A stretch of 64,000 nt of DNA, taken from positions 1-64,000 of IMG/VR virus record IMGVR_UViG_3300044611_001070; one strand, written 5' to 3'. Each line of letters begins with the position of its first letter. The stretch's first letter is position 1. A program made the position numbers and the translations under genes. Source of the DNA: a virus. Below, piece by piece: positions 7,756 to 61,571 of this stretch. The notes beneath the pieces were generated by a model. That model searched no databases. It was given only the letters and a program-made list of their open reading frames with translations, and was not told the DNA's origin.

Positions 7756-7897
7756 TCACTCAAAATTTTTATTAGACGAATTTTATTATTTGGCAAAATT
7801 CTTGAGGATATCGTATAACGATTTCTTAAAACTTCCAACCTACATTAGAAGATATCTCTTAGATAAGATAGTTGAGGAAAATACGCCCAAAACTTAA
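7709..7897 (+). CDS. gp51-like hub assembly protein or frameshift extension of the gp26-like protein
   Basis: A 62-residue frame in the +1 phase relative to the gp26-like gene. Its distinctive part is DEFYYLAKFLRISYNDFLKLP followed by T-Y-I-R-R-Y-L-L-D-K-I, a helical pattern like the small second product of tail-assembly chaperone pairs and gp51-type hub assembly factors. Two routes of expression are visible. One is internal initiation at ATG 7709, with a GGAGA sequence 8 bases upstream. The other is +1 slippage at TTT-TTT-CGG (7735-7743) giving a fusion. The first eleven residues overlap the other frame. The assignment rests on position and pattern, not firm homology. Confidence 0.6.
   Translation: MSSSTLGWSFFGLSSNHSKFLLDEFYYLAKFLRISYNDFLKLPTYIRRYLLDKIVEENTPKT
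7735..7743 (+). promoter_or_regulatory. Candidate +1 ribosomal frameshift site
   Basis: The zero-frame codons are TTT TTT CGG. A Phe-tRNA on the second TTT can slip one base to TTC with perfect pairing, while CGG is an Arg codon that this AT-rich phage seems to use rarely. The zero frame ends 12 bases after the CGG codon, and the +1 frame continues for 52 codons. This is recognition by logic, not a proven site. Confidence 0.4.
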
Positions 7898-7905
7898 TAC
7901 TTAAA

Positions 7906-7913
7906 TATTTATT
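7906..7913 (+). promoter_or_regulatory. TATTTATT motif, candidate late promoter of the tape-measure gene
   Basis: TATTTATT in the 29-base gap before the tape-measure gene, ending 13 bases before the ATG. Confidence 0.5.
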
Positions 7914-7926
7914 GTAAAAATTAATT

Positions 7927-14970: not shown

Positions 14971-15294
14971 ATGAATTTCCAATATTATAACAGATATAAT
15001 GAGTTTTTAATAAATGGACAACAAACCGTTGTACCATACATAAATTTACCTGCAAAAACATCAGATAAAAATTTCATATATAAAGTTGGTCAATCAAGGT
15101 TAGATAAGGTATCATTCCAATTTTATAATACACCATATTTTGGTTGGTTAGTACAAATGGCAAACCCCCAATATAGTGGTATGGAATCAAACATACCCGA
15201 TGGGGCAATTTTAACAATACCATATCCGCTTGTTAAGTCATTACAGGATTATAAAAACGAATTAGAAAATTATTACTTCTATTATGGTAGATAA
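14971..15294 (+). CDS. LysM-like / gp53-like baseplate protein
   Basis: This 107-residue protein contains a LysM-like fold pattern: FIYKVGQSRLDKVSFQFY (residues 35-52), F-G-W-L-V-Q-M-A-N-P-Q-Y, then IPDGAILTIPYPL. T4 gp53 has the equivalent segment (P-R-P-E-E-L-A followed by Y-W-V-L-L-M) and small tail proteins of the gpX type are LysM domains that clamp the baseplate centre. The gene lies two bases after the giant baseplate gene and overlaps the next gene by 11 bases, so the three are one translational unit. I cannot choose between gp53-like wedge and gpX-like role. Confidence 0.7.
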   Translation: MNFQYYNRYNEFLINGQQTVVPYINLPAKTSDKNFIYKVGQSRLDKVSFQFYNTPYFGWLVQMANPQYSGMESNIPDGAILTIPYPLVKSLQDYKNELENYYFYYGR

Positions 15295-18200: not shown

Positions 18201-21200
18201 CAAATGATTTATCATCGTACAAACAAGCCGCATATCTATTCTTGAATAGTTTACCACTAGCAAGTCTTAGAGAAAAATATAGATCATATAACGAACCTAA
18301 TGATTTAAGTTATATATTATCAACCATTAAAAAATTTGGAGCGGTACATAAATTACCATACGCTTGGGTTGTTAAATATGGTTCCATATGGCATAGATAT
18401 AAAACTTGGAATGATACTGGTGTAGATATATTAGATGAGGTTTGGAAAGATTTTGATTATTTAGGTAATTATGATCCTGTAACCTCGGCATCAACAAAAG
18501 TTTATTCTTTGAATATTGAAGGATTCCAAAACAATATAGTTTTAGAAAATACGGTAAATTCAACACCAAACTTAGTTGCATATAATTCAACAACTATGAA
18601 TACAGGATTTTTTCCTAAGTTGTATGATGATATGAATGTATTCTTACAAGGATTACAATTATTTTCGGGGACAACACAATTAAATGGTACTTGTAGTATT
18701 GTTGGAACAACATTAGACGTTTATACTATTAATGATAATAACTTGGCTCCTGGCGAAGTATTAGCCGGACCAACAATAGATGCTAATACAACTATTGTAT
18801 CCCAAATAAATGGTACAACAGGAGGTGTTGGTAAATATACTGTTGATATATCTCAAAATACATCAATATTAAATGGTACTTGTAATGTTAATTTAACAAC
18901 AATGGACGTTTTAACGTTTAGTGGTGGTACATTATCTGCTGGACAAATTATTTCAGGACCAAATCTTGCTCTTGGAACTAAAATTGTTAGTCAAGTGAGT
19001 GGTACTACAGGAGGTGTTGGACAATATGTTGTTGATATATCTCAAACACTTACAGGAGAAAACTTTACTGTGGTTACACCAAACATTTTTTATGTTACTA
19101 ATTCATCAACAGGTGGATATTCACAAACTGAAATCCAAACATTAATTAATGATGGTAAAATGGTGATGACAACAAACGAAGGTGGTAAAATTATTGAAAC
19201 AAGTGGTTTTGATCCTAACGATAATGATAGATCATTAAAAATAACGCCTTGGTCAACAATTGTTAAAACAACTGAAGGTGATAAATATTTTATAATGCCG
19301 TCTTTTGGTTACACAAAAAATCAAACAAAAGAGGAGTGTTTTAAAAATAACAAAATGAAAATAGAGGCTTCTAGTAATCCTGCGGTCTTTAACGGATCTG
19401 TTAGATTATTTTGGGGATCACCAAACTATGGTTATTTTGATAATACTAAAATTACAAAACCAAATCCTGATTCATATTTGAAAGAAATATTGTCGGATAA
19501 AAAAACACAACAGAATTTTTCATTGAATGGTGATATTACAAAATACGATAAAATATCGGAAATGTTTACAACATTTGATACGGAAATATTAGATTACTTT
19601 GAACAAGAGTTTTTAAATTTTAGTAGATCAATTTACGATTTTAAGACATTGGTTCCAAGTGATAAAGATGTTGAAACTGAATCGGAAAGATCATACAAGA
19701 ACTTTCAATTATTAATGAGAGAATTATTAGTTGTTGAAAAACCATCAACTCTTAATTCTGAGGGGATGATTAATTCTGTTATTGAAAAACAAAAAACAAC
19801 ATTTCAAGGAATACTAACTAATTTTTTAGAATATAATGTTGTATTAAAAATGGGTAATCCATCTATGTTTGATAGAAGAACATTTTTAACATTCTCTACT
19901 AAATTCTTAATTGATCCTGTGTCATATCAAGGGTATAGTCAAGGAACATCAGGAAGTTTACCATCAAACGGTGGAACTATTACATTGGCTCAATCTAAAA
20001 TTGCAAACCCTGAAACATGGAAAACTTTAGAGAAATATGTTGGGTTTTCAGAAATACCTGAGTTAGTTTATTCCGATAATGGATCATATATAACAGATTT
20101 CTTTATTGATTTGAATGTACAATTTACTGAAAAAAATATTAAAGATTTTGCTCCGTTGATTATGTTATATGCAACACAAAAACTTAATAATTTTGAAGTC
20201 CCAACAAATAATGTTTTTATCCCAAATCCCGTTCCGACACCCGCACCAAGTCCTCAAACACCTGGTGATTTATTAATGGTTGTAACACTTAAAGATACTA
20301 AAACAATTTCTGTGTATAAATTTGGACCACAAAAATATGGTGTTTATAAAGATGCTTCAGGAACAATTTTATATACTGGTCCGTCACTTAGTGCGTTTCA
20401 ATATCCATTAAATATTACGGTGGTTAATGAAATTATTATAAGTCAATATTCTACGGGTTTAGCATCAACACCTAATGACCCACAATTTATTATTAGTATT
20501 GTTAATGTAACTCCTTCACAAGTAACAACAACTACCACCACACTTCCTATTGTTCAAAATTTAGGTAATAGTTTAGGTGGTGTTAAGTTTTATGGACTTA
20601 TGGATGAATACCTTGATAAATCTGAAATTTATTTAAAAAATGTTATTTCTAATTTAATGACAGGAGTGAGAGCTGGTTTACCAAATATTACAATAGAGGG
20701 TGATAAAGGTAATAAGTCACAACTTGAGGGAGAACAAACAAGAGTTGAGATATGGGAAACATTCAAAGCGTTTAATGATACTTGGGTTGCCGGTGGTGAT
20801 TTTAAATCAAAAACAATGTTTGAAGATGTTTTATTATTTGATAGGGCAAGTAGAGACGTTGGACAAAAAGTTTATGTTGATATCTTTAAAATTAAAGATT
20901 TAATTGAAGGTTCATTATATAAAAATAATATGTTGGATATTGTATCAACAATTTTAACTCAAAATAATTTTACTTATTTCCCATTACCTGCTTATGCTAA
21001 TTTCTATAACGCACAAGATGCTGAAAAAAATCCTGTACCAAGAAGTGAAGGATCAACTGAATTTGCTAACTCATTTTGGGGTACGTTCTTAAATGTGGAC
21101 TACAGAAACACATCACCTAAGTTTTTATGTTATTACGCAAACAAACCTAGCCAGTATGTGGATATGAAGGATAATGTTGATTATAGATTTAGAGATGACG

Positions 21201-22411
21201 CTTTTGATCTTAGAAGAGCAAGTGATAATCCATTAGTTGAAAATCAATCTAATAAAAAAAATTGGGATAAATCAAATAAAGTTGTTGGGTTTAATATAGA
21301 CATTAGTAATCAAAATCAACAAATATTTAAAAATTTTAGTGTTGGTCAAGATGTTGGTAAACCTACTGCAGAATCTTTGGAGATGTTAAATCAAATGGCA
21401 AACCAAAGTAGAAACAGAAGTACAGGATCTCAAAACGTATCTTTATATAACTTATATAGAAATAGAAGTTACGAATGTTCTGTTGATATGTTAGGTAACG
21501 CTCTTATACAACCCATGATGTACTTTAATGTAAGAAACATACCTATGTTCTCAGGGCCATATATGATTACTTCGGTAACTCATCAGATTAGTGAAGGTGA
21601 ATTTAGTACAACATTTAAAGGTACAAGACAACCTTTTTATAGTTTACCTAAAATTGATAGTTTTATACAATCTTTAAGTTTGGATATAATATCTAAATTA
21701 CAGGAACAAGTAAAAGCAAATGAAGAAAAGAAAAAAAACTCAAGTGAAAATGTGATATTCCAAAAAAATAATGTGGTTTCAAATGTAACCGGTACTGATA
21801 CAATAACTAAAAATCAAGATTGTTCTGATAAAATTAATAGTGGTTATGTTGGGTATACACCATTAGATAGTCCAACATCAACTCAAATATCATATAAGGA
21901 TTTTAAAAAATTACTTGGAGATAGAATTGTCGCAAGTGGGGTACCAAAAGAAACAACAAGTAATAGTGTAACAACTATTAATCCTACTTTTAGAGATTTA
22001 TCTTATTATTTATTCTCATTTATTTATTTAGATTCCGCATCATCAAGTGGAATGAAAACTTATGAGAATAATTATAGTACAATTAATTTAACTGAAACTT
22101 ATGGGGAGGTACTTGCCAAAACAACTAATAAAAAGTTCTATTGTCTTTCAAGAGGCACTAATTTGAACATACCAATTGTATCATTTATATCTGCTGAAAA
22201 ATTTGTAGATTTTGCGATTGCTAGATTCAAAGATAAATTATCTTTAATTAATACAAATCTTACTGCTCAAGAGGATATTGTTAAATTGTATGTTACAAAG
22301 TATCCAATTAATCAACCTGATAATGTTTATACTGAAATGACAGAACAAGATAAAAATACATTACAAAATAAAGTAAAACAGGCAATAGATATATATAACT
22401 CAATAAATTAA
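15284..22411 (+). CDS. Giant baseplate hub-like structural protein (2375 residues)
   Basis: One of the largest genes in the window. The N-terminal 240 residues contain a conserved block: LGITDIQVAIDTSFLPTVTV, then S-A-F-F-Q-L-P-Y-P-M-F-Y-L-T-L-K-G-Y-Y-G-K. Near residues 2060-2130 there is a hub/late-control-D-like block (YECSVDMLGNALIQPMMYF, N-I-P-M-F-S-G-P-Y, then V-T-H-Q-I-S-E-G-E-F and G-T-R-Q-P-F), a pattern of gp27-like proteins that form the central hub. Between them lie two 63-residue tandem repeats (about 1133-1258), a Pro/Ala linker and a poly-Thr stretch (about 1746-1752). A hub with large decorative insertions is the best reading; membrane segments are not evident. It overlaps the LysM-like gene by 11 bases. 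Confidence 0.7.
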   Translation: MVDKGENILVEFDYDNITLIDPNKIVDSEGKVSDRLVKHENLVFYANLECNVLPRTKLALGSALNDSIRTVSVGKINFLNPGNKTFMDNRYTDEITGKGSVQGQGVNQPKLNAVQNPNKSDDFYLTQSTYSNGTPGAVDNGLLGITDIQVAIDTSFLPTVTVSLVDVKGRALFEGGNNSPYSAFFQLPYPMFYLTLKGYYGKAVRLPLMLQSFTSNFDNSSGNFKITLKFFGYKYTVMSYVNWGAMMAVPHMYNNFVSTTQASTNTTTGSNLEAVTQKPISRGYQKMKELYSEYKSKGLIDDDFPEITITQLKARLDRFINNILEKFTKENLGSITELDNFQTQLTEFQKKVFFYGDSWFETYMDKKNSYSLKDTKEVVYTYKKDYSDPNKQAEAETKLAGIFTEYQKLLESNSVAGKNGSYTVGGKITKSEVPVNATVEKCYAKINPLTDIDFAKTYEERTGKPSKTQTELDTFIATNSIAPGTKFFVFEGTDHFIDITEKAAKESSKLRREIEEKITDNLNEQLSKDTGVGFKPSIRNVLAVFFAQGEAFIRLMDDVHSKAWDLRENKYRRQAIFGSNSSALSVDVKSSTQNNEPIYPWPQVIKETLGDDKQEKFEIVYPGDKSISTMTKAYIPEIWPEVEFVEEFIKGYTDRVPKNPDYGDESNVVTRPNRLSLNALDFPVTNEVFQNKEEIKFFYEIYERIMVNTYYSKLNRQSGYDASIFMVEAEDEKINILKSLGDDNPFLTQKLKRYLIDQNNFLTFLRHISNQGQGESWQKFIRGEFTINYLKNKTNVPFELFNQQILTNERSQPNVSLTDESKIIDYIGNQTSSNEFDFSDMYPITNFNWCKNYLADGEALQNVNLAYNTKDVLSYNTTHKTICNFNNDDTNDKKRPITNFNYKADVFSQNINTSNFKTFYNNRKIEEQFTTEGNLNYSNYDGFLTETQTTSILNTPYFINAIQNGVYNFRYKPNDLSSYKQAAYLFLNSLPLASLREKYRSYNEPNDLSYILSTIKKFGAVHKLPYAWVVKYGSIWHRYKTWNDTGVDILDEVWKDFDYLGNYDPVTSASTKVYSLNIEGFQNNIVLENTVNSTPNLVAYNSTTMNTGFFPKLYDDMNVFLQGLQLFSGTTQLNGTCSIVGTTLDVYTINDNNLAPGEVLAGPTIDANTTIVSQINGTTGGVGKYTVDISQNTSILNGTCNVNLTTMDVLTFSGGTLSAGQIISGPNLALGTKIVSQVSGTTGGVGQYVVDISQTLTGENFTVVTPNIFYVTNSSTGGYSQTEIQTLINDGKMVMTTNEGGKIIETSGFDPNDNDRSLKITPWSTIVKTTEGDKYFIMPSFGYTKNQTKEECFKNNKMKIEASSNPAVFNGSVRLFWGSPNYGYFDNTKITKPNPDSYLKEILSDKKTQQNFSLNGDITKYDKISEMFTTFDTEILDYFEQEFLNFSRSIYDFKTLVPSDKDVETESERSYKNFQLLMRELLVVEKPSTLNSEGMINSVIEKQKTTFQGILTNFLEYNVVLKMGNPSMFDRRTFLTFSTKFLIDPVSYQGYSQGTSGSLPSNGGTITLAQSKIANPETWKTLEKYVGFSEIPELVYSDNGSYITDFFIDLNVQFTEKNIKDFAPLIMLYATQKLNNFEVPTNNVFIPNPVPTPAPSPQTPGDLLMVVTLKDTKTISVYKFGPQKYGVYKDASGTILYTGPSLSAFQYPLNITVVNEIIISQYSTGLASTPNDPQFIISIVNVTPSQVTTTTTTLPIVQNLGNSLGGVKFYGLMDEYLDKSEIYLKNVISNLMTGVRAGLPNITIEGDKGNKSQLEGEQTRVEIWETFKAFNDTWVAGGDFKSKTMFEDVLLFDRASRDVGQKVYVDIFKIKDLIEGSLYKNNMLDIVSTILTQNNFTYFPLPAYANFYNAQDAEKNPVPRSEGSTEFANSFWGTFLNVDYRNTSPKFLCYYANKPSQYVDMKDNVDYRFRDDAFDLRRASDNPLVENQSNKKNWDKSNKVVGFNIDISNQNQQIFKNFSVGQDVGKPTAESLEMLNQMANQSRNRSTGSQNVSLYNLYRNRSYECSVDMLGNALIQPMMYFNVRNIPMFSGPYMITSVTHQISEGEFSTTFKGTRQPFYSLPKIDSFIQSLSLDIISKLQEQVKANEEKKKNSSENVIFQKNNVVSNVTGTDTITKNQDCSDKINSGYVGYTPLDSPTSTQISYKDFKKLLGDRIVASGVPKETTSNSVTTINPTFRDLSYYLFSFIYLDSASSSGMKTYENNYSTINLTETYGEVLAKTTNKKFYCLSRGTNLNIPIVSFISAEKFVDFAIARFKDKLSLINTNLTAQEDIVKLYVTKYPINQPDNVYTEMTEQDKNTLQNKVKQAIDIYNSIN
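18680..19057 (+). repeat. Two tandem 189-bp coding repeats
   Basis: The unit starts TTAAATGGTACTTGTA at 18680 and again at 18869. GTTGATATATCTCAAA recurs at the same offset (162) in each, at 18842 and 19031. Each unit encodes 63 residues with T-I-V-S-Q or K-I-V-S-Q, then GTTGGVG and Y-x-V-D-I-S-Q, a beta-rich module common in phage and environmental tail proteins. Confidence 0.9.
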
Positions 22412-28572: not shown

Positions 28573-30432
28573 ATGGATATTTCACAAAAAATTTTAAGTG
28601 ATATTACAGTGTATATGAAATATGCTAAATTTATTCCCGAATTAAATAGAAGGGAAACATGGGAAGAATTGGTAACAAGAAATAAGGAGATGCACCAAAA
28701 GAGATACCCCCAAATTAAAGAAGAAATTGAAAACGTATATAAAATGGTATATGGTAAAAAAATTCTTCCATCAATGAGATCATTGCAATTTGGTGGGAAA
28801 CCTATTGAAATTTCACCAAACAGAGTTTACAATTGTGCTTACATGCCGATTGACCATCCAGATGCGTTCTCTGAGACTATGTTCTTACTGTTAGGTGGAA
28901 CAGGTGTTGGATTTTCAGTACAAAAACACCACGTTGATAAATTACCTGAGATTAAAAAACCAAACCCAACAAGAACAAGACGTTACCTTATTGGTGATAG
29001 TATTGAGGGATGGGCAGACGCAATTAAAGTATTAGTTGAATCCTATTTGGGTGTTAAATCATCAACACCTATATTTGATTTCTCCGATATCCGACATAAA
29101 GGAGCATTATTGGTAACTTCAGGAGGTAAAGCCCCTGGACCTCAACCACTTAAAGATTGTGTTCATAATATTACAAAAGTGTTTGAAAACAAAAAAGATG
29201 GTGAAAAATTATCAGCTATTGAAACTCACGATATTGTATGTCATATTGCAGACGCGGTATTAGCAGGTGGAATCAGAAGAGCGGCATTAATTTCATTATT
29301 CTCCGCTGACGATGAGGAAATGATTTCTTGTAAGTCAGGAAATTGGTGGGAACAAAACGCACAAAGAGGTAGAGCTAACAACTCGGCAGTACTTCTTCGT
29401 CACAAAATCACTAAAGAATTTTTCATGGATCTTTGGAAAAGAATTGAGTTATCAGGAGCAGGTGAACCTGGTATCTACTTGTCAAACGACAAAGATTGGG
29501 GAACCAATCCATGTTGTGAGATTGCACTTAGACCTAATCAATTCTGTAACTTATGTGAAGTAAATGCGTCTGACATTGAATCACAAGAAGATTTTGAGGA
29601 AAGAGTTAAAGGGGCAGCGTTCATCGGAACATTACAAGCGGGATACACTGACTTCCATTACTTAAGAGATGTATGGAAAAGAACAACTGAGAAAGACGCA
29701 CTTATTGGTGTTGGAATGACAGGAATTGGTTCAGGTGTTGTTTTAGGTTATGATATGAAATCAGCTGCTGAAATGGTTAAACTTGAAAACGAAAGAGTTG
29801 CAAAACTTATAGGTATTAACAAATCGGCAAGGTCAACAACCGTTAAACCATCAGGAACATCATCATTGGTTTTGGGAACTTCTTCAGGTATCCACGCATG
29901 GCACAATGACTTTTATTTAAGAAGAATTCGTGTTGGTAAAAACGAAGCAATCTATTCTTATTTGGCAATTAACCATCCTGAGTTAGTAGAAGATGAGTTC
30001 TTCCGTCCTCACGATACGGCAGTTATCTCAATTCCACAAAAATCACCATTAGGATCAATCCTTAGACACGAATCCGTATTTCAAATGTTGGAACGTGTTA
30101 AGAAAGTATCACAAGAGTGGGTTAGAAATGGACACAGAACGGGTCAAAACACACATAACGTATCTGCAACGGTTTCGATTAAAGAAGACGAGTGGGACTT
30201 GGTAGGTGATTGGATGTGGAACAATAGAAAATTCTATAATGGTTTATCAGTGTTACCATATAACGGAGGAACTTACACTCAAGCACCATTTGAGGATTGT
30301 ACTGAAGAAGATTTTAACAAATTGTTAAGTGCATTGGAAGATGTGGATCTTACAAAAGTAATTGAATTACAGGACAATACAGACTTAAGAGGTGAAGTTG
30401 CGTGTGGGGCTAATGGATGTGAAATTTCTTAA
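28573..30432 (+). CDS. Adenosylcobalamin-dependent (class II) ribonucleoside reductase
   Basis: The 619-residue enzyme reduces ribonucleotides to deoxyribonucleotides to feed phage DNA synthesis. Class II features are visible. Cys88 sits in RVYNCAYMP, one half of the redox pair. A GGTGVGFSV loop is present, then N-P-C-C-E-I-A-L and FCNLCEVNA near 313-330, containing the thiyl-radical and partner residues. KPSGTSSLVLGTSSGIH lies near 416-432, and a C-terminal C-G-A-N-G-C pair shuttles electrons. No small (diiron) subunit or activase is seen nearby, in agreement with B12 dependence. There is no intein, though phage reductases often have one. It follows the helicase by 31 bases with an A-rich leader. 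Confidence 0.9.
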   Translation: MDISQKILSDITVYMKYAKFIPELNRRETWEELVTRNKEMHQKRYPQIKEEIENVYKMVYGKKILPSMRSLQFGGKPIEISPNRVYNCAYMPIDHPDAFSETMFLLLGGTGVGFSVQKHHVDKLPEIKKPNPTRTRRYLIGDSIEGWADAIKVLVESYLGVKSSTPIFDFSDIRHKGALLVTSGGKAPGPQPLKDCVHNITKVFENKKDGEKLSAIETHDIVCHIADAVLAGGIRRAALISLFSADDEEMISCKSGNWWEQNAQRGRANNSAVLLRHKITKEFFMDLWKRIELSGAGEPGIYLSNDKDWGTNPCCEIALRPNQFCNLCEVNASDIESQEDFEERVKGAAFIGTLQAGYTDFHYLRDVWKRTTEKDALIGVGMTGIGSGVVLGYDMKSAAEMVKLENERVAKLIGINKSARSTTVKPSGTSSLVLGTSSGIHAWHNDFYLRRIRVGKNEAIYSYLAINHPELVEDEFFRPHDTAVISIPQKSPLGSILRHESVFQMLERVKKVSQEWVRNGHRTGQNTHNVSATVSIKEDEWDLVGDWMWNNRKFYNGLSVLPYNGGTYTQAPFEDCTEEDFNKLLSALEDVDLTKVIELQDNTDLRGEVACGANGCEIS

Positions 30433-46200: not shown

Positions 46201-46229
46201 TAAATTTTCAAATAATATGTAATCAATAA
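43203..46229 (+). CDS. Tail/baseplate protein with gpI-like helical segment
   Basis: The 1008-residue protein has a beta-rich N-terminal region (about 1-260). A helical middle (about 300-480) contains [20 protein letters not shown] followed by [11 protein letters not shown]. This resembles the tail protein I / wedge family, where the helix anchors the fibre network to the baseplate. The C-terminal part is aromatic-rich and contains a Cys-rich stretch (C-K-P-C and C-P-R-Q-A-I-E-C-P near 853-871) that may bind metal or form disulfides after release. It starts one base after the previous stop, and its own stop overlaps the adhesin gene (TAATG). Confidence 0.7.
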
Positions 46230-49200
46230 TGGGTATTATAAATATAAATCAATTTAATATAACAGGAGATTGTACAAATCAAGGGTTAGGTGTTGTAACT
46301 TTTACTGTAACTGGTGATAGTCCTGATTGGTTAGTTATTGAAAGTCCTACCGCTAACCTTAATTTACCCACATCTGGATTAACAACAACAATAATTGATG
46401 TAGGGCCACCAATAATATATAATAATGTCTATTATTATTCAGGTTTAAGTGCGGGTAGTTATTTTTTACAAGTATATGACTCAACATATAGTAATTATGA
46501 GGTTGTAAATTTTAATATATCACCAGGAACCTGCGTATCAATTGAAACTACAAACACTACTTGTGGTTTTGATAACGGAGGCATAACCGCAACAACAGAA
46601 TATTATTATGGTGGTGGTATGGGATCTACTTTTGCTTTATATGATATTGATAATAATTTTATTTCAAGTGGAAGTTCAACAAATACTGAATATGTTTTTC
46701 CTCCTGTTTCTGCTGGAACTTATTATGTTGTTGCGGATGATGGGGGTGGTTGTACAGGTAAATCCGCGTCTTGTATTGTAACAAACTCAATACCTTTTGA
46801 TTATGGTTATTATGTTGTAAATGATGGAAGTTGTATAAATAATGATGGTAGTGGTAAAATATTTTTAACAGGTTTATCTGATCCAAGTTTATACACAGTT
46901 AATTGGTTAACAAGTGTTAATGGACAAACTGGGACAACGGTAACAGGTTTAACTGCAGGTTTATATAACGTACAAGTCACAAATAATGATGGTTGTACTC
47001 TAAGTAAAATAATAACTGTTACTGGTGTAGACCCATTGGGTATTGGTGGTTTTATGACATATCCACCAAGTTGTTTCACTAATGATGGTGAAATAAACAT
47101 AATTGTAACAGGTGGAACCGCGCCATATTATATTGGATGTTCTAATGGTGATAGCGCAATAATATTTAATAATGAGTATACTTTTACAGGTTTATTTTCG
47201 GGGACATACAATTTTAACATAATAGATGCCGGAGTATGTACTGTATCGGGAACAACGTCTATCAACACGGCTAATAGTTTTCAAGTATTAAGTATTAATA
47301 CCACAAATTCAATTTGTAATAATAATTCGGGATCGGTAAATATTACTTTAATTGGGTCAGGATATTACACATATATTTTAACAGATTCATTAAATGATAC
47401 AACAACTTTTGGACCTACTAATAATATAGTACAAGATTTTGATACATTATCTTCAGGTGATTATGATTTGGTAATAACTGATGGTGTATGTACATATGAA
47501 ACTACAATTACAATTGATAATACTGAACTATTTACAATTTCGGCTATTACTCAAAATACTACTTGTGGGTTAAGTAATGGGTCAATACAATTATTAGCAA
47601 GTAGTGGTGGGACATTACCTTATAGTTATCAGATTACAGGATTTCCACCATCCCCAATGTCAACATTTAATAATCTATCTCCTGGAAATTATACTGCCAC
47701 AGTTACAGATCTTGCAGGTTGTAGTCAGACATTAGATTTATATATTAACGATTCATATGGTGTATTATTTGACTTAGTTGTGACTCAACCAACATGCGGG
47801 AATAATGGTGAAATATCAACCTTAATATATGAGGGCAACCCAACATTTACCTATAATTGGAGTCCAAATGTTAATGGTCAAACTGGAACAACTGTAACAT
47901 CATTAAGTGGTGGAACATATAGTTTGGAAATAATTGATTCAAGTGGATGTACAAGTACTGAAACCGTTGTTTTAAATGGGACTAATGTACAAGTAAGTTA
48001 TCAAACATATAATATATGTAATGATAATTTCCAAAATACAGGAATACTTGGTAAAAGAAGTATACAACAAATGTTTGCTGAAGGTTTTAGTGATTTAACA
48101 TATGATGATACTGGATGTATTATTGTTAGTGCAAATTTTATTGCCGACATTACTGTTGATGGAGAAAATACTCAACAATCATTCTACGTTTCTTCAGGAT
48201 TAACTGATTATCCATCTGACTATGAGTGGGGTCAAGCAATTACTGAAACTTTAGAAAGTTATAGTGGTATAAGTAAAGTTGAAATTAATTACTCACTTAA
48301 TCAAATTAAAATATATAATAAATGTGTTGAAATAGATGGGTGTTTACCTGAAACCATTTATTATCTATCTGATGCAAATATTGTGATCAATTTAAAATTG
48401 GAATATAATATTTCTTGTTATCAATGTATTGTAACACCAACACCAACGCCAACACAAACTACAACACAAACATTAACGCCAACACAAACGCCAACACAAA
48501 CGGTAACACAAACATTAACGCCAACACAAACATTAACGCCAACACAAACATTAACACCAACACCAGGATTATCGCCAACACCAACTCCTACTCAAACATT
48601 AACTCAAACGTTAACACCAACTGAGACTCCAACTAATACACCTACTCAAACACCAACAGAAACTCCTACATTAACACCAACTAATACCCCTACGTTAACT
48701 GTAACTAATACTCCTACTCAAACATTAACTCAAACTTTAACTTCTACGCCAACTGAAACCCCTACTCAAACGCCAACTGAAACCCCTACTTCAACACCTA
48801 CATTAACGCCAACTGAGACCCCTACATTAACGCCAACTGAGACGCCAACTAATACTCCTACATTAACTCAAACATTAACACCGACACCTACTCAAACATT
48901 AACTCAAACTGAGACCCCTACTTCAACACCTACTCAAACGCCAACAGAAACACCTACATTAACGCCAACAGAGACGCCAACTAATACTCCTACATTAACT
49001 CAAACATTAACACCAACTGAAAGTCCAACAAATACTCCTACTCAAACACCAACTCCAACACCAACACCAACACAATTTAGTCAAATTAAATGTAATGAAG
49101 GAACTATACCAAAGGACGTCGTATACTCATATTACTCATGTTGTTACCCTTACGGACAAATAAGTGGAACAACTGGAGGAAGTCCGATAACTGTATGTTA

Positions 49201-49516
49201 TAACTCTTATTCTGCTACTACAAATGTTACCATAGTTTCACCTGAAGTAATATGTGATACATCAGGATTAACTAGTTGTTGTGAAATTCAATTGGGTTAC
49301 AGTCTACTTATTCCATCCCCACCTTGTAATGTAGGTTCTTTAACGACATACTATATAAGTAGCTCTTGTCTTGCAACTAGTTGTGATTTGAGTGGTGCGT
49401 TTGCAATATACACAGATGAATATTGTACTATACTCGCAGATGACGGGACTTATTCAGATAATAGTAACTATGGTTCACAAAATAGTGGAGTTTTTACTTT
49501 TAATGGACCATGTTAA
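46229..49516 (+). CDS. Tail fibre/adhesin with SprB-type repeats and Pro-Thr stalk
   Basis: A 1095-residue exposed fibre. Residues about 10-590 contain about seven SprB-like units (T-x-C-x-x-x-x-G-x-I, then [13 protein letters not shown]-type endings such as [16 protein letters not shown]), a repeat named after the Flavobacterium gliding adhesin. A joining domain (about 590-730) precedes a 215-residue Pro-Thr-Gln-Leu repeat (about 735-949, e.g. TPTQTLTPT). This leads to a Cys-rich C-terminal domain (about 950-1095, with Y-S-C-C-Y-P and S-C-C-E), probably the receptor-binding tip. Disulfides are possible after release. The stalk repeat is inverted relative to a similar one at 55.4-55.8 kb. Confidence 0.85.
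48433..49074 (+). repeat. Pro-Thr-Gln-Leu coding repeat (fibre stalk)
   Basis: Degenerate short tandem repeat built of units like ACA CCA ACT CAA ACA TTA. The 19-mer CTCCTACTCAAACATTAAC occurs exactly at 48585-48603 and 48711-48729. The same 19-mer occurs in inverse orientation at 55521-55539 and 55557-55575. Confidence 0.92.
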
Positions 49517-49611: not shown

Positions 49612-50586
49612 ATGGAAAATATTCTTTTTGTAACCGCACAACCTGACGTACCTTATTTTCATTGGCAAGTAAAATTATATACACATAATTTTATTGAGAA
49701 AGGAATTAAACCTTGTCAGATCCATGTTATTTTTGGTTTACAAAAAAAACAACAACCATCAAAAGGAGCATTAGAATTATGTGATTATGGGTATAATGTT
49801 CATTTCTACGATGACGACAGAGATAAAAAATCTTATATACCAAGTATTAAACCATATTTAATTTACCAATGGCTAAAAGAATATCCCGAAAACGGGAAGT
49901 TATTTTTTTTACACGATTCTGATATTATATTCAATAGATTACCTGATTTTGATAAATTATTAAATGATAATATTTCTTATTTATCTGATACAATAGGGTA
50001 TATTGGTTACAACTACATTAAAGATTGTTGTGATAGATATGAGAAACAACACCCATCATCAAACAAAGAACAATTATTTCAAGAAATGGCCGACATAATT
50101 GGAATTGATGTTGATTTAATTAAACAAAACCAAGAAAATTCGGGTGGAGGTCAATACCTAATCAAAAATACGGATCCACTATTATGGGCTAAGATTTATG
50201 ATGATTGTACACCATTATATAACCAAATGTTAGATTATCAAAAAAGATTTCCAATTAACCCTGGTCAAATACAATTTTGGACTGCAGAAATGTGGTCATT
50301 ATTATGGAATATGTGGAATTCTGGATATAAGACAAAAATAACAAATGAATTTGATTTTTCTTGGGCAACTGATGATATTGATATTTATAATGAAAAACCA
50401 ATATTACATATGGCAGGTGTAACTGATAATTTAAAAACTACAAAATTTTATAAGGGAGATTTTATAAACAGGAATCCGATTGAGGATTTAATAAATGATA
50501 ATAATTTCTTTAATTATGTGGATAAAAATAGTTCCACAATTAAATATATTGAAGTAATGAAGTCATTTTTGGAAAAAAATAAATAA
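49612..50586 (+). CDS. Glycosyltransferase-like protein (HPAT/SGT-type GT-A fold)
   Basis: A 324-residue soluble protein. It starts with a Rossmann-like strand NILFVTAQPDVPYFHWQ, then a K-P-Y-L-I-Y-Q-W segment. FFLHDSDIIF at about 97-106 holds a D-x-D motif as in GT-A sugar-nucleotide transferases. Further blocks are NSGGGQYLIKN, then TAEMWSLLWNMWNSGYKTK and P-I-L-H-M-A-G-V. This arrangement recalls plant-type hydroxyproline/serine O-glycosyltransferases (HPAT, SGT), as remembered, not searched. Such enzymes add sugars to Hyp or Ser/Thr of Pro-rich proteins. The gene lies between two fibre genes rich in Thr and Pro, so fibre glycosylation is a natural hypothesis; a capsule-modifying role is the alternative. 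Confidence 0.65.
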   Translation: MENILFVTAQPDVPYFHWQVKLYTHNFIEKGIKPCQIHVIFGLQKKQQPSKGALELCDYGYNVHFYDDDRDKKSYIPSIKPYLIYQWLKEYPENGKLFFLHDSDIIFNRLPDFDKLLNDNISYLSDTIGYIGYNYIKDCCDRYEKQHPSSNKEQLFQEMADIIGIDVDLIKQNQENSGGGQYLIKNTDPLLWAKIYDDCTPLYNQMLDYQKRFPINPGQIQFWTAEMWSLLWNMWNSGYKTKITNEFDFSWATDDIDIYNEKPILHMAGVTDNLKTTKFYKGDFINRNPIEDLINDNNFFNYVDKNSSTIKYIEVMKSFLEKNK

Positions 50587-50603: not shown

Positions 50604-51923
50604 ATGGCAACTAAACCGATATCAATTAAACCTGCAAATGAATGTGAAGTATTAACTCTATTTCCAATGGTGTTAATATGTAATAATACAAATCCAAGTA
50701 CATTAGAATCGTGTGATGGGTCAATTAGCCTTATGGTTAGTGGTGGTACACCACCATATGAAATTAATTGGGAACAAGGTGGATATGGACAAACAATAGA
50801 TAATCTTACTTATGGTGATTATCCCGTAACTGTGGTTGATTCTTATGGTGATTTTACGGCAACTACAATATGTAGTTTAATTCCTGAGACAACAACAACT
50901 TCTACAAGTACCACAACAACAACTACTTTACCTGCTTATAGTGGTTTATGTATGAATATTATTGATACAATTGGAGCTAATTCTGAAATACATCAATTTT
51001 TATTTAATGGATATTTAAATGGTATGCCTACTTGGATATCTGATGATAATTTATATAACATATATTGGAGTACAGGAACAACAAGCCAATGGTTAGTTGA
51101 TGGATGGACTAATGGTATTATATATAATTCAAATACATCTACACCTCCATTAACGGGATGGCAATTTTTAGGTGGGGATTGTTTAGGGTCATATATAATT
51201 ACTGTATTGGAAGGAGATTGTGTAAATAATGTTATAATAAATTTATCTATAAATGTTAATTCCCCAACCTGTGGTAATAATGGTAGTATTATTGTTACGG
51301 CAAATGGAGGATCACCAGCTTACCAATATTCAATTAATGGTGGAACAACTTATCAGTCTAGTCCAGTATTTACTAATCTATTACAAGGTATATATGTTGT
51401 TAAGGTTAAAGATTCAAATAATATAACAACAACACAAACTGTTACATTATTAGCTCCACCTCCTAATCAAACATATCAATTAAAATTAACTTTAACTGGA
51501 CCTAATTCATTTGATATAACTGTAAACCCAACATTACCTAGTGGAGCTTATATTACTTTTGATTTAAAACATAATAGTGTATTTAAAGTGGCACCTTCAC
51601 CAACCGCCGCTTTATATGATAATATAGTTACTGTTAATGTTAATGGTTCTCCAATAGCAACACCATCGCCTATGTTAAGTACAAGTACTACGTTTAATCC
51701 TTGTAATTCTGGATCAATATATAATAATACAAATGTCACTACTTGGAATACCTTATTATTTAATTCAACAACAATAATAAATGGTAGTTTTACAAATACT
51801 ATAAACCCAATAACACCTTTAGTTACCTGTTATTCAGTTAACGGGACAACTAAATTATTTATGACAAATGTTATATTAAATAATTGTAATTGTTGTAATG
51901 TTACAATTATAAATCCATCATAA
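50604..51923 (+). CDS. Tail fibre protein with SprB-type repeats and Thr linker
   Basis: The 439-residue protein begins with one SprB-like unit (CDGSISLMVSGGTPPYEINW, about 36-55, then G-D-Y-P-V-T-V-V-D). A poly-Thr/Ser linker TTTTSTSTTTTTTLP follows near 95-109. A middle domain precedes a second unit (PTCGNNGSIIVTANGGSPAY, about 219-238) with the ending Y-V-V-K-V-K-D. The C-terminal domain is beta-like and ends in a small Cys cluster C-N-C-C. It is exposed fibre material like the 46-kb adhesin. There is no membrane segment. Confidence 0.8.
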   Translation: MATKPISIKPANECEVLTLFPMVLICNNTNPSTLESCDGSISLMVSGGTPPYEINWEQGGYGQTIDNLTYGDYPVTVVDSYGDFTATTICSLIPETTTTSTSTTTTTTLPAYSGLCMNIIDTIGANSEIHQFLFNGYLNGMPTWISDDNLYNIYWSTGTTSQWLVDGWTNGIIYNSNTSTPPLTGWQFLGGDCLGSYIITVLEGDCVNNVIINLSINVNSPTCGNNGSIIVTANGGSPAYQYSINGGTTYQSSPVFTNLLQGIYVVKVKDSNNITTTQTVTLLAPPPNQTYQLKLTLTGPNSFDITVNPTLPSGAYITFDLKHNSVFKVAPSPTAALYDNIVTVNVNGSPIATPSPMLSTSTTFNPCNSGSIYNNTNVTTWNTLLFNSTTIINGSFTNTINPITPLVTCYSVNGTTKLFMTNVILNNCNCCNVTIINPS

Positions 51924-51955: not shown

Positions 51956-54469
51956 ATGAGTTATATATTAAAAAATACATCAGGGTTGGTTAGTACTAGA
52001 ATTACTGACACCGGAAGGTTAAAATTATCACAAGGTAATTTTAATATATCCTATTTCCAAATTGGAGATAGTGAAGTGTCATATAATGAATTACCAAACA
52101 CTTATAATCAATCAAATAGTGTTGTTTTAGAACCAAGTTTTAATAGTCAAAATAATGCTGGATCTCCTGAATCAAACAAACAAAATATTAAATACCCATA
52201 TTATGTTGATGACAATAATATTAATACATATGGTATACCATTTATGGATTCTGTTATTGAACCTGTTTATAATAGAGCCCCACTAAGAGGATTTTTCACA
52301 GGTAATACAACTGCATCAACAATTAATTATAGTGCATTTACTGGGTCAAAATATGTTGTCACATCCAATTATATTGTTGATATGTCAACATTAGATGGGT
52401 CAAATCAAATAACAATTATTCAAGACATATGTGACCCAACAAATACCAATAAACCTGGTGTTGGAGATTTTATTACAATATATTATGATGGTTTAGCAAA
52501 GTATGATTGTTCTTGTGTTAATTTACCGACACCAACACCAACGGCAACAATAGGTACTACACCAACATTAACTAATACTCCCACTGTGTCAAATACTAAT
52601 CTTGACCCGTGTGCGTCACCAACACCAACTCCAACTCCATCGGCAACACCTTGTTTGACACCATCAAACAAACCTGTTTGTCCTATACCACCTGATCCAT
52701 CATGTGTTAAACCTGTTCACTCATGTTTTCCTATCTTAACTTATAGAATTATTGATATTTGTGAGAACAATGTGACTTTGGATAGACCAACACCAAATTA
52801 TATTGGTTTAAGTACGTATTGTTTTGGTAGAGTATTGGTATATCCACCGAATATGACAACAATATATGATAGTATCACACCTAGACCACATTGGAATGAT
52901 GATGTTATTAATTTTGAGTCAATTTGTGATATTGATCAGTTTGATGTGAAAGTATGGAATATGAATATTCCGTGGACTGAAAGTCCTGCAGGATTAAGAT
53001 CTACTGAGTATGAAGATTATACGTATTTTGGTTCTATTGATTATATTGGTAGTAAAGAATATTTTGGATATAATTCTACATCAGGACAGACTGATACAAG
53101 TTATGTGTATTATTATAACTCATTTGATGAAATTGTTCAGGTTAAACCTGAGGAACAGAAGGCAATTGCAATTATACATTATACAAATCAAACTATAGAT
53201 TTCTTCTATGGTGAGAAATTTGCGTTAGAACCGTATAACAATTCAAACCCTGATGATACAACAGGACAAGCAAGAAACTTTAAATTACATATGCCAACAT
53301 TAATGTGGCATAAAAATCCTGAGTGTTGTTATGGTCAAACATTTTGGGTTGATCCTCCGGGATTTGATGGAAAAGATTTATTCCAAGTTCAATATATTAA
53401 GTCAACTAAGAATACTGATATGAATCAACCTGGTATTCGTTATTATCACTTGTGGGACACTAATGCAAATGCAGATGGATTACCAAGTAGAGTTGGTAAA
53501 GTATTCCCTGATAGTAAATTAATTATTATTGATGATGAGGAAATTATTGCGGCGTTATCATACAAGTCAAATAGAAACTGGACGTTAACGGCACCACAGG
53601 TGTCTTTAATAACTCCTAACACTTGTGGTTTAACTACCGCAACTACTGAAGGTATTTTAACAGGTAGTAGTGAAACTATGTTTGTTACTTATAGATTAAG
53701 TAATCCTTACAATTTTACTAATTCACTACATTCTAACTATTATTCTAAAATAACTGGTAATAATAATGATTGTAATCCTGACACATCTAAAAATGTGGCG
53801 GTTAGATTTGGTGCCGAGTTTAAATGTTTAACACAACCTGGATATAGTCCGATAACAACAACTACCACATATCCTTTATTAACAACGACTACAACTTATT
53901 TACCATTAACAACTACCACAACAACACATTGTCCAATTACTTGTGATACACCTAATGGATTCTTTGCAACTAACTTCCAAGTAATAGCACAAAAAGTGGT
54001 AACAGGACAAAGACCTGATCCATCTAAATGGAAAGTTATTGACTACACTAGTTCGTTATCAACAACAACAATAAATGGGTATATAACTGAAGAAGGTTTA
54101 ACTGGAACAACATTTGTTATTACTCCTGATCTTTATAATAATGCACCATATTATAATCTTAATAATTTCATTCCATTAACACCACTTGGTACTACCACAC
54201 CTAATCTTAATTTTGGTGATGAGTACTTTTTCTACGGAGCATTTGAAAGTGATATACAGGCAACAATTTATGAGATGAGGTATAAAGTAAATTTAAGTTT
54301 TGCTGAATTTCAAACCACAACAAATCCTACATGGAAAAAAGGATCTAATTCTTATGTCACTGAGATTGCGTTACTTGATAGTAATAAAGATGTTATGGTT
54401 GTTTCTAAGATGCAATCACCTGTGTTAAGACAAGGTATACAACAGTTCGTAGTTAAGTTAGATTTGTAA
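51956..54469 (+). CDS. Tail fibre/connector protein with Pro-Thr and Thr linkers
   Basis: The 837-residue protein has an N-terminal module STRITDTGRLKLSQGNFNIS (about 13-32), followed by Y-F-Q-I-G-D-S-E. I know this type from the start of tail proteins in large Bacteroidota phages. A Pro-Thr linker (about 195-240, with TPTPTPSATPC) and Cys-rich stretch lead to a large beta domain (about 250-620). Poly-Thr linkers (ITTTTTYPLLTTTTTYLP) lie near 635-655, and a C-terminal domain ends in a strand-rich R-Q-G-I-Q-Q-F-V-V-K. It follows the SprB-type fibre gene and precedes the resolvase, so it is the last plus-strand fibre gene. Confidence 0.7.
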   Translation: MSYILKNTSGLVSTRITDTGRLKLSQGNFNISYFQIGDSEVSYNELPNTYNQSNSVVLEPSFNSQNNAGSPESNKQNIKYPYYVDDNNINTYGIPFMDSVIEPVYNRAPLRGFFTGNTTASTINYSAFTGSKYVVTSNYIVDMSTLDGSNQITIIQDICDPTNTNKPGVGDFITIYYDGLAKYDCSCVNLPTPTPTATIGTTPTLTNTPTVSNTNLDPCASPTPTPTPSATPCLTPSNKPVCPIPPDPSCVKPVHSCFPILTYRIIDICENNVTLDRPTPNYIGLSTYCFGRVLVYPPNMTTIYDSITPRPHWNDDVINFESICDIDQFDVKVWNMNIPWTESPAGLRSTEYEDYTYFGSIDYIGSKEYFGYNSTSGQTDTSYVYYYNSFDEIVQVKPEEQKAIAIIHYTNQTIDFFYGEKFALEPYNNSNPDDTTGQARNFKLHMPTLMWHKNPECCYGQTFWVDPPGFDGKDLFQVQYIKSTKNTDMNQPGIRYYHLWDTNANADGLPSRVGKVFPDSKLIIIDDEEIIAALSYKSNRNWTLTAPQVSLITPNTCGLTTATTEGILTGSSETMFVTYRLSNPYNFTNSLHSNYYSKITGNNNDCNPDTSKNVAVRFGAEFKCLTQPGYSPITTTTTYPLLTTTTTYLPLTTTTTTHCPITCDTPNGFFATNFQVIAQKVVTGQRPDPSKWKVIDYTSSLSTTTINGYITEEGLTGTTFVITPDLYNNAPYYNLNNFIPLTPLGTTTPNLNFGDEYFFYGAFESDIQATIYEMRYKVNLSFAEFQTTTNPTWKKGSNSYVTEIALLDSNKDVMVVSKMQSPVLRQGIQQFVVKLDL

Positions 54470-55210: not shown

Positions 55211-56911
55211 CTATCCACTACATGGATATACTGCAATACATGCCGCACAACTATTTGTACCTACAAAAATAACTCCGGCACCAACGGGTGATCCAACAGA
55301 TGTAGAAACTGTAGTCCAACAATTATTATTGTAAACTACTCTTTGACCCGCAATAGTTCCTGAAGGTAATATTAAAATAATATCCGGACTAGCCAAACAA
55401 CAATCAGAAACTAACCATTTATCTCCACCTGTTTGAGTTAATGTTTGGGTAGGAGTAGGAGTTAAAGTTTTTGTTGGGGTTGGTGTTAATGTTTTTGTTG
55501 GGGTTGGTGTTAATGTTTGTGTTAATGTTTGAGTAGGAGTTTGTGTTAATGTTTGTGTTAATGTTTGAGTAGGAGTTTGTGTTAATGTTTGTGTGGGGGT
55601 AGATGTTAATGTTTGAGTAGGGGTAGGAGTTAATGTTTGCGTAGGGGTAGATGTTAATGTTTGTGTTAACGTTGGAGTTGGAGTTAACGTTGGTGTTGGT
55701 GTTGACGTTTTTGTTGGTGTAAGTGTTGGTGTGGACGTTAGTGTTGGTGTAGGAGTTAATGTTTGAGTAGGGGTAAGTGTTGGTGTCGGTGTAGGAATAA
55801 TACATTCAGAACACGAACCTTCTGATTCAAGACCTAAAATATCTGTTAAAACTATAGTAGAAATTCCGGCAATATTATCAACAAAACCATCATAAATTAT
55901 ACAAGTTGATATACCATCAACAAATGATTGGTATACATATCCTTCATCTGGTGTATTACCTAAAGGATCTAAAACAACATCTGTTGTGTAATATAAAAAT
56001 CCTGTGTAACATTCTTTAAATCTTTTACTACCTGAACATTTAATATATTCATCAAATGTGTTAAACACAACAGATCCATCAAAATTACAATTATATTGTG
56101 GTGATATAGTCGGTGTTGGTGTTGGTGTTTTTGTTGGTGTTGGTGTTGGTGTTAAAAAACTTACAACTACTGAAATTCCTACACCTCCACAAATTTCAGT
56201 TGCGGTTGGTGTTGGAGTTGGTGTTGGATCTGGTGTATTTGTAAGTGTTGGAGTAGGAGTTAAAGGTAACTCACAATCAAACGCAACCTCAAAAGATATT
56301 GGTTGACAATATTGTGTTGTTGTTGGTGTTGGAGTGGGACAAGCCCCATAGTTAAAAAAACTATTACATAAATTAGGGCAATGGTCAAAACAAGGAGACG
56401 CTCCAAATAATAAACAATCACCACCTAACGAATTTGATAAACACCAAGAATTTTCCGATGAAGAAAAAAATATGTAATATCCGTTATTTCCTGACCAATA
56501 ATTATTAGAATTATATGTCCCCCCACTATAATAGTTATCATAATATGGTTCAACATCTACACAATAAGATATTGAGCATGATGAAGGTGTCAATGTTGGT
56601 GTTGACGTTAATGTTGGTGTTGGTGTTAATGTTGGAGTTGCCGTTGGTGTACATTCAGGACAATCACAACATACAATTTCCACGATACCACCTTTACTTG
56701 CATCATAATAATAGATATTATTACCATCACTAAAATATATATCCGCTGGAAAAGTGGTACCAGTACAAAATGGATCATAATATAGATCCCCACTTAATAG
56801 GTCTAAACTATCGCCATAAATTGCGGTGGGGTACGGGACAGGATGTGATGGTTCACATATATCATCTATACTATTACTTAACTTAAAAGAACCTAAAAGA
56901 TTACACGCCAT
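55211..56911 (-). CDS. Minus-strand tail fibre with Cys-rich modules and Pro-Thr stalk
   Basis: The 566-residue protein alternates small Cys-rich beta modules with Pro-Thr linkers. An N-terminal module ends in CCDCPEC near 80-86, followed by [19 protein letters not shown], and a second module (about 108-195) is rich in Tyr/Ser/Asn. Shorter linkers, then a third module (about 275-370), lead to a long stalk TPTQTLTPT (about 373-494). A C-terminal tip domain follows, beginning DKWLVSDCC (about 497-566). It is fibre material encoded opposite to all other structural genes. It overlaps the upstream small gene by one base (TAATG), so it is translated with it. Confidence 0.85.
   Translation of the reverse strand: MACNLLGSFKLSNSIDDICEPSHPVPYPTAIYGDSLDLLSGDLYYDPFCTGTTFPADIYFSDGNNIYYYDASKGGIVEIVCCDCPECTPTATPTLTPTPTLTSTPTLTPSSCSISYCVDVEPYYDNYYSGGTYNSNNYWSGNNGYYIFFSSSENSWCLSNSLGGDCLLFGASPCFDHCPNLCNSFFNYGACPTPTPTTTQYCQPISFEVAFDCELPLTPTPTLTNTPDPTPTPTPTATEICGGVGISVVVSFLTPTPTPTKTPTPTPTISPQYNCNFDGSVVFNTFDEYIKCSGSKRFKECYTGFLYYTTDVVLDPLGNTPDEGYVYQSFVDGISTCIIYDGFVDNIAGISTIVLTDILGLESEGSCSECIIPTPTPTLTPTQTLTPTPTLTSTPTLTPTKTSTPTPTLTPTPTLTQTLTSTPTQTLTPTPTQTLTSTPTQTLTQTPTQTLTQTLTQTPTQTLTQTLTPTPTKTLTPTPTKTLTPTPTQTLTQTGGDKWLVSDCCLASPDIILILPSGTIAGQRVVYNNNCWTTVSTSVGSPVGAGVIFVGTNSCAACIAVYPCSG
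55431..55796 (-). repeat. Pro-Thr coding repeat, inverse copy of the 48.4-kb repeat
   Basis: Same unit type as 48433-49074, on the opposite strand. The 19-mer CTCCTACTCAAACATTAAC (minus strand) lies at 55521-55539 and 55557-55575, and its codon phase matches that in the plus-strand adhesin (ACT-CCT-ACT-CAA). It lies near the end of its fibre gene, like its partner. Confidence 0.92.
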
Positions 56912-60689: not shown

Positions 60690-61571
60690 TTGGAAAATTA
60701 TTTAGAGGTGGGACAAACACCACTTATCCCTATTGATATTGATGGAGTTATTATTTGGGGTAAGGCAGAATTTATGAACCCATCAGGATCTGTTAAAGAC
60801 AGACCAATCAAAAACATTTTAACACGAGCGGTAGAGAATGGTTTATTATCCAAAGGAGGTACCGTTGTTGAAGCAACTAGTGGAAACGCAGGTATTTCAT
60901 TTGCTATGTATTGTGCCGAAATGGGGTTTAAATGTGTTATTGTAATGCCATCTAACATGAGTGAAGAACGTAAAAAAATGTTACGTCTATATGGTGCGGA
61001 ACTTATTGAAGTTGGACCTGGTGATTTTGATTCTGCAATTAAATTAAGAGATGAGTTGGCAGAAAAAAATGGATGGTTTAATGGAAATCAATTTGCATCG
61101 CCTTGGAATATAGAGGCTCATAAAGAAGGGACAGGTGTTGAACTAATGTATCAGGCAATTAGTAATAAAATTAGACCATCTGCATTTGTATTAGGAACTG
61201 GTACTGGTGGAACACTAATGGGAGCGGGAGAAACACTTAAAAATTTTTATTATGATATGGAAATTGTTGCGGTTGAACCTTCAGAGTCACCAGTAATGAG
61301 TGGAGGAGAATCAGGATTACATGGGATTCAGGGGATCGGAGACGGTTCTAAGTTTATGGTTGATTTAGATTTTGTTGACCACATTATTACAATATCAACA
61401 GAAGAGGCGACTCAAATGAGTCGTAGATTATCTAAAGATTATGGAATTTTTGTTGGAATTTCTGCGGGAGCAAATGTTTTGGCTTCAGTTAAATACGGAC
61501 AAAAGTTTGATAAGACAAACATTTTCACTATACTTTGTGATAGAGGAGACCGATACCTTTCAATATTATGA
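60690..61571 (+). CDS. Cysteine-synthase-like PLP enzyme (CysK/CysM family)
   Basis: The 293-residue protein has the fold-type II motifs of O-acetylserine sulfhydrylase. NPSGSVKDRP at 30-39 contains the PLP-binding Lys36, EATSGNAGIS at 61-70 binds the substrate carboxylate, GTGTGGTLMG near 168-177 binds the phosphate, then G-I-S-A-G-A-N, and C-D-R-G-D-R-Y-L-S near the end. The TTG start at 60690 is chosen because it places the E-V-G-Q-T-P-L segment, equivalent to I-G-N-T-P-L in the family, at the N-terminus, and no ATG precedes it. It would make cysteine from O-acetylserine and sulfide in the cell. A related beta-replacement function is possible. It overlaps the next gene by ATGA. Confidence 0.87.
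   Translation: MENYLEVGQTPLIPIDIDGVIIWGKAEFMNPSGSVKDRPIKNILTRAVENGLLSKGGTVVEATSGNAGISFAMYCAEMGFKCVIVMPSNMSEERKKMLRLYGAELIEVGPGDFDSAIKLRDELAEKNGWFNGNQFASPWNIEAHKEGTGVELMYQAISNKIRPSAFVLGTGTGGTLMGAGETLKNFYYDMEIVAVEPSESPVMSGGESGLHGIQGIGDGSKFMVDLDFVDHIITISTEEATQMSRRLSKDYGIFVGISAGANVLASVKYGQKFDKTNIFTILCDRGDRYLSIL

Follow-up and report, generated by a model that had tools for sequence, protein, structure and literature searches.

Phages that decorate their own particles with sugars are known among the mycobacteriophages: Che8, Corndog and Myrna are described as encoding glycosyltransferases that modify the C-termini of their own capsid and tail-tube proteins (Freeman et al., 2023, as cited in PMC12619734 and PMC12363180). 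A system that appears alike in this respect, with phage enzymes decorating the phage's own capsid and tail proteins, centers on the gene at positions 49612-50586 (+ strand) of a 64,000-nucleotide stretch of viral DNA (IMG/VR record IMGVR_UViG_3300044611_001070, positions 1 to 64,000), hereafter referred to as the window. Judged from its predicted structure, the gene product is almost certainly a glycosyltransferase (GT) of the GT-A type, and the distribution of its relatives makes it very likely that it O-glycosylates poly-threonine tags on the virion proteins of the phage that encodes it. The 324-residue enzyme matches the PHROG 4417 profile over its full length (E 1.6e-70, profile positions 3-290 of 293). 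PHROG 4417 is catalogued as 'unknown function', in an entry that mentions neither glycosylation nor poly-Thr, and the present analysis proposes a function and a testable substrate for a widespread phage family.

The open reading frame (ORF; ATG start, TAA stop) is real and conserved and not a product of chance, because relatives are found by tblastn in 74 phage records (from phages of Lactobacillus, Enterococcus, Staphylococcus, Lactococcus, Chryseobacterium and others), because scans of viral contigs add hundreds more, the relatives from both sources ranging from 27 to 100% identity, and because both aspartates of its D-x-D motif (D102 and D104, within HDSDIIF at residues 101-107) are invariant in 41 of 41 aligned members. 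Also invariant in this alignment are F16, W18, Y75, P81, S125, G179xQ181, Q221xW223, H266xxG269, F279 and K281. At the sequence level, neither the window enzyme nor its profile matches anything in Pfam, NCBIfam or the PDB sequences; the Pfam GT8 profile is not listed for 40 relatives, and the window enzyme itself has no Pfam match at E<=1. A scan of genome contigs returned no relatives, although the exact-peptide patterns used reach close relatives only, so that chromosomal prophage copies are possible.

An AlphaFold2 model computed on the 41-member family alignment (pLDDT 94.1, pTM 0.92) shows a Rossmann-like GT-A fold, which together with the D-x-D motif places the enzyme among the GT-A glycosyltransferases. 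A Foldseek search of the PDB with this model gives 261 matches at E<=0.001, and among the 50 matches listed all are glycosyltransferases or the related sugar-phosphate transferase GNPT; the top matches are the GT-A enzymes WbbM, XXYLT1 (xyloside xylosyltransferase), the catalytic domain of UGGT, blood-group GTA/GTB and glycogenin. In a structure search of BFVD, family members come first (e.g. LP65 Orf49), followed by viral GTs. The GT identity put forward in an earlier sequence-only reading of the window, which had picked out the HDSDIIF motif and recommended structure prediction and a fold search, is thereby borne out, with likeness to GT8, GT24 and GT6-type enzymes. Near the C-terminus, H266 and G269, both invariant in the 41 aligned members, form a GT8-type HxxG, presumably a metal/phosphate motif by analogy with GT8, and we take the combination of DxD and a late HxxG to be reminiscent of retaining GT8-type enzymes. 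The GT-A fold and a likely metal- and nucleoside diphosphate-sugar-dependent chemistry are well supported by the model, and likeness to GT8, GT24 and GT6 enzymes suggests retaining chemistry. The GT-A enzymes of these families (XXYLT1, glycogenin, UGGT and GTA/GTB) share with the window enzyme the fold, the DxD and the C-terminal HxxG, but are unlike it in showing only ~10% identity and no match at the sequence level, and, despite a best E value of 5e-7 among the PDB matches, TM scores of ~0.4-0.5.

Runs of threonine are concentrated in genes close to the enzyme. In 35 of 43 family loci, chosen to be no more than 80% identical, a gene at most two positions away contains at least five consecutive Thr (T5 run). 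Counted per gene, T5 runs occur in 51/166 genes near the enzyme, in 17/279 genes farther off and in 5/765 genes of comparison loci without it; runs of residues other than Thr come to about 1 each in the same comparison. The five enzyme-free genes comprise a major capsid protein (MCP) cut at the contig end (L212), three genes on contigs that end before an enzyme could appear (two on L291, one on L338), and a single true exception, the major tail protein (MTP) of L244. The Thr codons within the tags are mixed, which indicates that selection acts on the protein and not on a DNA repeat, and a DNA-repeat artefact was rejected as their source on this ground.

In most isolates examined, the enzyme gene is surrounded by genes for head and tail proteins, and the structural proteins next to it often have a poly-Thr end. 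It follows the MTP gene in phiFL1A and PMBT8 and the capsid gene in iLp84, R3.3, R9.1, VPE25 and Planchet (gene identities in R3.3 and R9.1 being assigned by homology), and adjoins small Thr-rich proteins in Semele. In iLp84 the MCP ends in ...VLVPTTTTTTTSK and the MTP in ...GETTTTTTTSK; the MTP of phiFL1A ends in ...TTTTTSTTTTTTSSTTTTTTTQASSK and that of VPE25 in ...TTTDTTTTTTTTTTAGK. Poly-T peptides such as PITTTTTYPLLTTTTTYLPL and GETTTTTTTSK may be acceptors of the enzyme. Beside the most divergent enzymes (L108 and L110), adjacent proteins end in PTTVAPTTVKPTT repeats, a possible variant acceptor.

Matched comparisons of related structural proteins show the tag present or absent together with the enzyme. 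In casei-type phages, where the MCP cores are nearly identical, the MCP is tagged (...TTTTTTSHG or similar) in 28/28 contigs with the enzyme and ends in ...VLIPKP in 15/15 without it; 14 more distant enzyme-free MCP relatives are likewise untagged, and on the MCP tree the tag/enzyme state changes at least 2-3 times. The MTP tag of these casei-type phages goes with the enzyme apart from a single clear exception in each direction, in counts where the match in L134 and L233 was to an uninformative reading frame and some contigs were counted twice, while the enterococcal-type MTP is tagged in 4/4 cases with the enzyme and 0/8 without. Isolates retrieved later bore out the prediction: R3.3 and R9.1, which carry the enzyme, are tagged on both MCP and MTP, and the enzyme-free Bassarid, phiJL-1, ATCC8014, Javan47 and phiLpTT2 nowhere show four or more consecutive Thr in the regions retrieved. 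No copy of the enzyme was found elsewhere on whole enzyme-free contigs. The tagged MTP of L244 (10816-11415, TTTTTTTSK) lies on an enzyme-free contig with an untagged MCP, an apparent mosaic.

In the window, poly-Thr runs are found within the fibre-type proteins of the two genes that follow the enzyme, and also farther off; the parts are as follows (lengths in amino acids, aa; TPT, Thr-Pro-Thr).

46229-49516 (+): SprB-repeat fibre-type protein, 1095 aa, with a TPT-type linker of ~220 aa (about 48422-49081) and no T5 run; a possible but unsupported substrate.
49612-50586 (+): GT-A glycosyltransferase of the PHROG 4417 family, 324 aa, predicted from ORF, motifs, AlphaFold2 model and Foldseek.
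50604-51923 (+): virion/fibre-type protein, 439 aa, directly downstream of the enzyme, with SprB repeats and a poly-Thr segment.
50862-50948 (+): the poly-Thr segment (ETTTTSTSTTTTTTLP) of this 439-aa protein, a predicted acceptor.
51956-54469 (+): fibre-type protein, 837 aa, downstream of 50604-51923, with poly-Thr runs and one TPT linker.
53828-53953 (+): the three poly-Thr runs (PITTTTTYPLLTTTTTYLPLTTTTTTHCP) of this 837-aa protein, a predicted acceptor.
13022-13078 (+): poly-Thr run (ETTTTTTTNKGG) in the 1674-aa protein at 9944-14968, a possible remote acceptor.
20501-20554 (+): poly-Thr run (VTTTTTTLP) in the 2375-aa protein at 15284-22411, a possible remote acceptor.

Among relatives of the window's fibre family, poly-T is found in 48/53 with the enzyme and 0/5 without it (Fisher p 5e-5), and four of the five enzyme-positive exceptions have poly-T in another enzyme-adjacent gene. 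The SprB repeats in the two genes that flank the enzyme are consistent with the 'fibre' label, which is otherwise based on gene size, position and low-complexity linkers; such repeats are known from Flavobacterium gliding adhesins. A sheath domain in the window marks a contractile-tailed virus, and this, together with the SprB repeats in its fibre-type genes, suggests that the phage probably infects Bacteroidota. On the opposite strand, a 566-aa protein with long TPT linkers (55211-56911, -) has PHROG 15511 in common with the 1095-aa protein. The window also encodes a phage-borne, cysteine-synthase-like enzyme dependent on pyridoxal phosphate (60690-61571; PALP, E 7e-67) and contains a weak match to B12-dependent ribonucleotide reductase (28573-30432).

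In the casei group, the capsid of enzyme-free phages carries a different potential extension. Just before the MCP stop of these phages lies the heptamer CCCAAAA, a typical -1 slippery sequence, from which the -1 frame leads on into a Big_2 Ig-like domain (E 6e-14), so that a programmed -1 frameshift giving an Ig-like capsid extension is likely, although the frameshifting itself is read from the sequence. In L216 (CL2), where this arrangement lies at 7640-7950, the GenBank record has only a short separate ORF annotated. Enzyme-bearing phages of the group have the tag in place of the Big_2 stretch and the enzyme downstream, and the tag with its enzyme and the Ig-like domain look like alternative capsid decorations. 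The Ig-like domains that are added by frameshift to phage structural proteins would occupy the same site at the MCP end as the tag, but as a protein decoration and not as a presumed sugar acceptor.

The mechanism that we favor involves a soluble GT-A enzyme, probably dependent on metal and nucleotide sugar and encoded with the structural genes, which would O-glycosylate Thr within poly-Thr blocks of roughly T5 upward, which in many cases have SHA, SHG or SK after them or are spaced by KP, VKP or AP. These blocks would serve as acceptors where they have been added C-terminally to capsid and major tail proteins, or to small mucin-like proteins, and, in the window phage, where they are inserted into the fibre-type proteins 50604-51923 and 51956-54469, perhaps also into 9944-14968 and 15284-22411. 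We infer the transfer of sugar to the tag Thr, the identity of that sugar and the benefit to the phage, which might be a changed particle surface, protection from proteases or attachment to glycans or mucus. Tag and enzyme would move jointly as an exchangeable surface-decoration module. The observations on which this mechanism is built are the predicted fold, the motifs, the co-occurrence of enzyme and tag, their concordant gain and loss, and the replacement of the Ig-like frame. The broader proposition, that one GT-A enzyme and a short poly-Thr tag form a portable module for unrelated capsid, tail and fibre proteins, which has spread over Firmicutes and Bacteroidota phages and swaps with Ig-like domains in the casei group as an alternative coat, we regard as probable.

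Several observations weigh against this mechanism. The MTP of L244 is tagged without the enzyme, and L146 has the enzyme and an untagged MTP. Eight of the 43 loci have no T5 run within two genes, some having one farther off, as in the VPE25 MTP; no Thr-rich neighbor was seen for the enzyme homologues of L095-L097 (about 42% identity), L108 and L110 carry TTVKPTT repeats in place of T5 runs, and the tail of the Planchet MTP is only of TTT type. Furthermore, sufficient flanking sequence was available for only five of the enzyme-free fibre relatives, the contigs share ancestry, so that the counts are inflated and not independent, and a fold likeness at TM ~0.4-0.5 fixes neither donor, acceptor nor stereochemistry.

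The sequence-only reading had envisaged an HPAT/SGT-like enzyme, encoded between Thr/Pro-rich fibre genes, that glycosylates their long Thr/Pro stalks. Of the genes around the enzyme, the one upstream has the long linker and the two downstream have poly-Thr runs together with a single TPT linker; the idea of virion self-glycosylation agrees with the co-occurrence of enzyme and acceptor, but with poly-Thr runs as the substrate. The long TPT linkers just upstream and in 55211-56911, and TP-rich stretches that also adjoin some Bacteroidota relatives, would suit stalk glycosylation. However, TPT linkers occur in 36/53 fibre relatives with the enzyme and persist in 4/5 without it, where poly-Thr runs do not (0/5), which is why the substrate is corrected to poly-Thr and TPT stalks were rejected as the primary one, their presence not tracking the enzyme; Firmicutes relatives, moreover, show poly-T tags and no TPT stalks. 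The proposed HPAT/SGT likeness found no support either: kinship with HPAT (GT95), the plant hydroxyproline arabinosyltransferases, was rejected, since the HPAT model PF23452 is in the Pfam library but is unmatched at E<=1 by the window enzyme and 40 relatives. HPAT is alike as a DxD-type GT with a proposed action on low-complexity protein, but hydroxyproline is not involved in the phage case, and the stalk explanation as a whole appears improbable.

Phage GTs of the gtr type, which have a role in seroconversion, are common, and the enzyme could by their example modify a host surface glycan or teichoic acid, leading to seroconversion or superinfection exclusion. Yet the annotation shows no GtrA/GtrB-like partner next to the gene, its place among head and tail genes speaks against such a role, and the co-occurrence with tags would be left unexplained, so that very little probability attaches to this reading. 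Glycosylation of modified bases in phage DNA has a precedent in the established phage DNA glucosyltransferases, but the gene lies among virion genes instead of DNA-modification genes and is strongly linked to protein tags, and this is the least probable of the alternatives by our estimate. The tags might, finally, function by themselves as flexible, sticky tails, with the GT acting on something else in the module, as the tagged but enzyme-free L244 would allow; but unrelated structural proteins have gained and lost the tag in step with the enzyme more than once, which makes this, too, highly improbable.

If the enzyme does glycosylate poly-Thr tags, virion self-glycosylation would reach past the mycobacteriophages to phages that infect lactic acid bacteria, enterococci, staphylococci and Bacteroidota, and a single enzyme that O-glycosylates a short Thr tag would be useful for glycoengineering. 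The role of particle glycosylation is directly testable in cultured close relatives, of which iLp84 and R9.1 have the module and CL2 lacks it; iLp84 and CL2 are phages of L. paracasei. A search of open-access papers returned no description of poly-threonine tags or of a PHROG 4417-type family in phages, although earlier work may exist. The tagged small protein of iLp84 has KPTTTTTTT-like repeats that recall mucin-like glycoproteins (PF01456; E 8.5e-5, below the curated cut-off), a likeness in composition only. As expected for self-glycosylation, the GT gene is linked to genes for virion proteins that contain a candidate acceptor; in Che8, by comparison, the GT genes are distant from those for structural proteins, and the MCP and MTP have no poly-Thr tag. 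The Che8 enzymes gp108-110 match the Glycos_transf_2 and Glyco_transf_25 models and not the window enzyme family, and homology between the two was rejected, as hmmsearch and hhalign gave nothing significant. Virion self-glycosylation is known from the mycobacteriophages, and what appears to be new is a distinct enzyme family coupled to a modular Thr tag.
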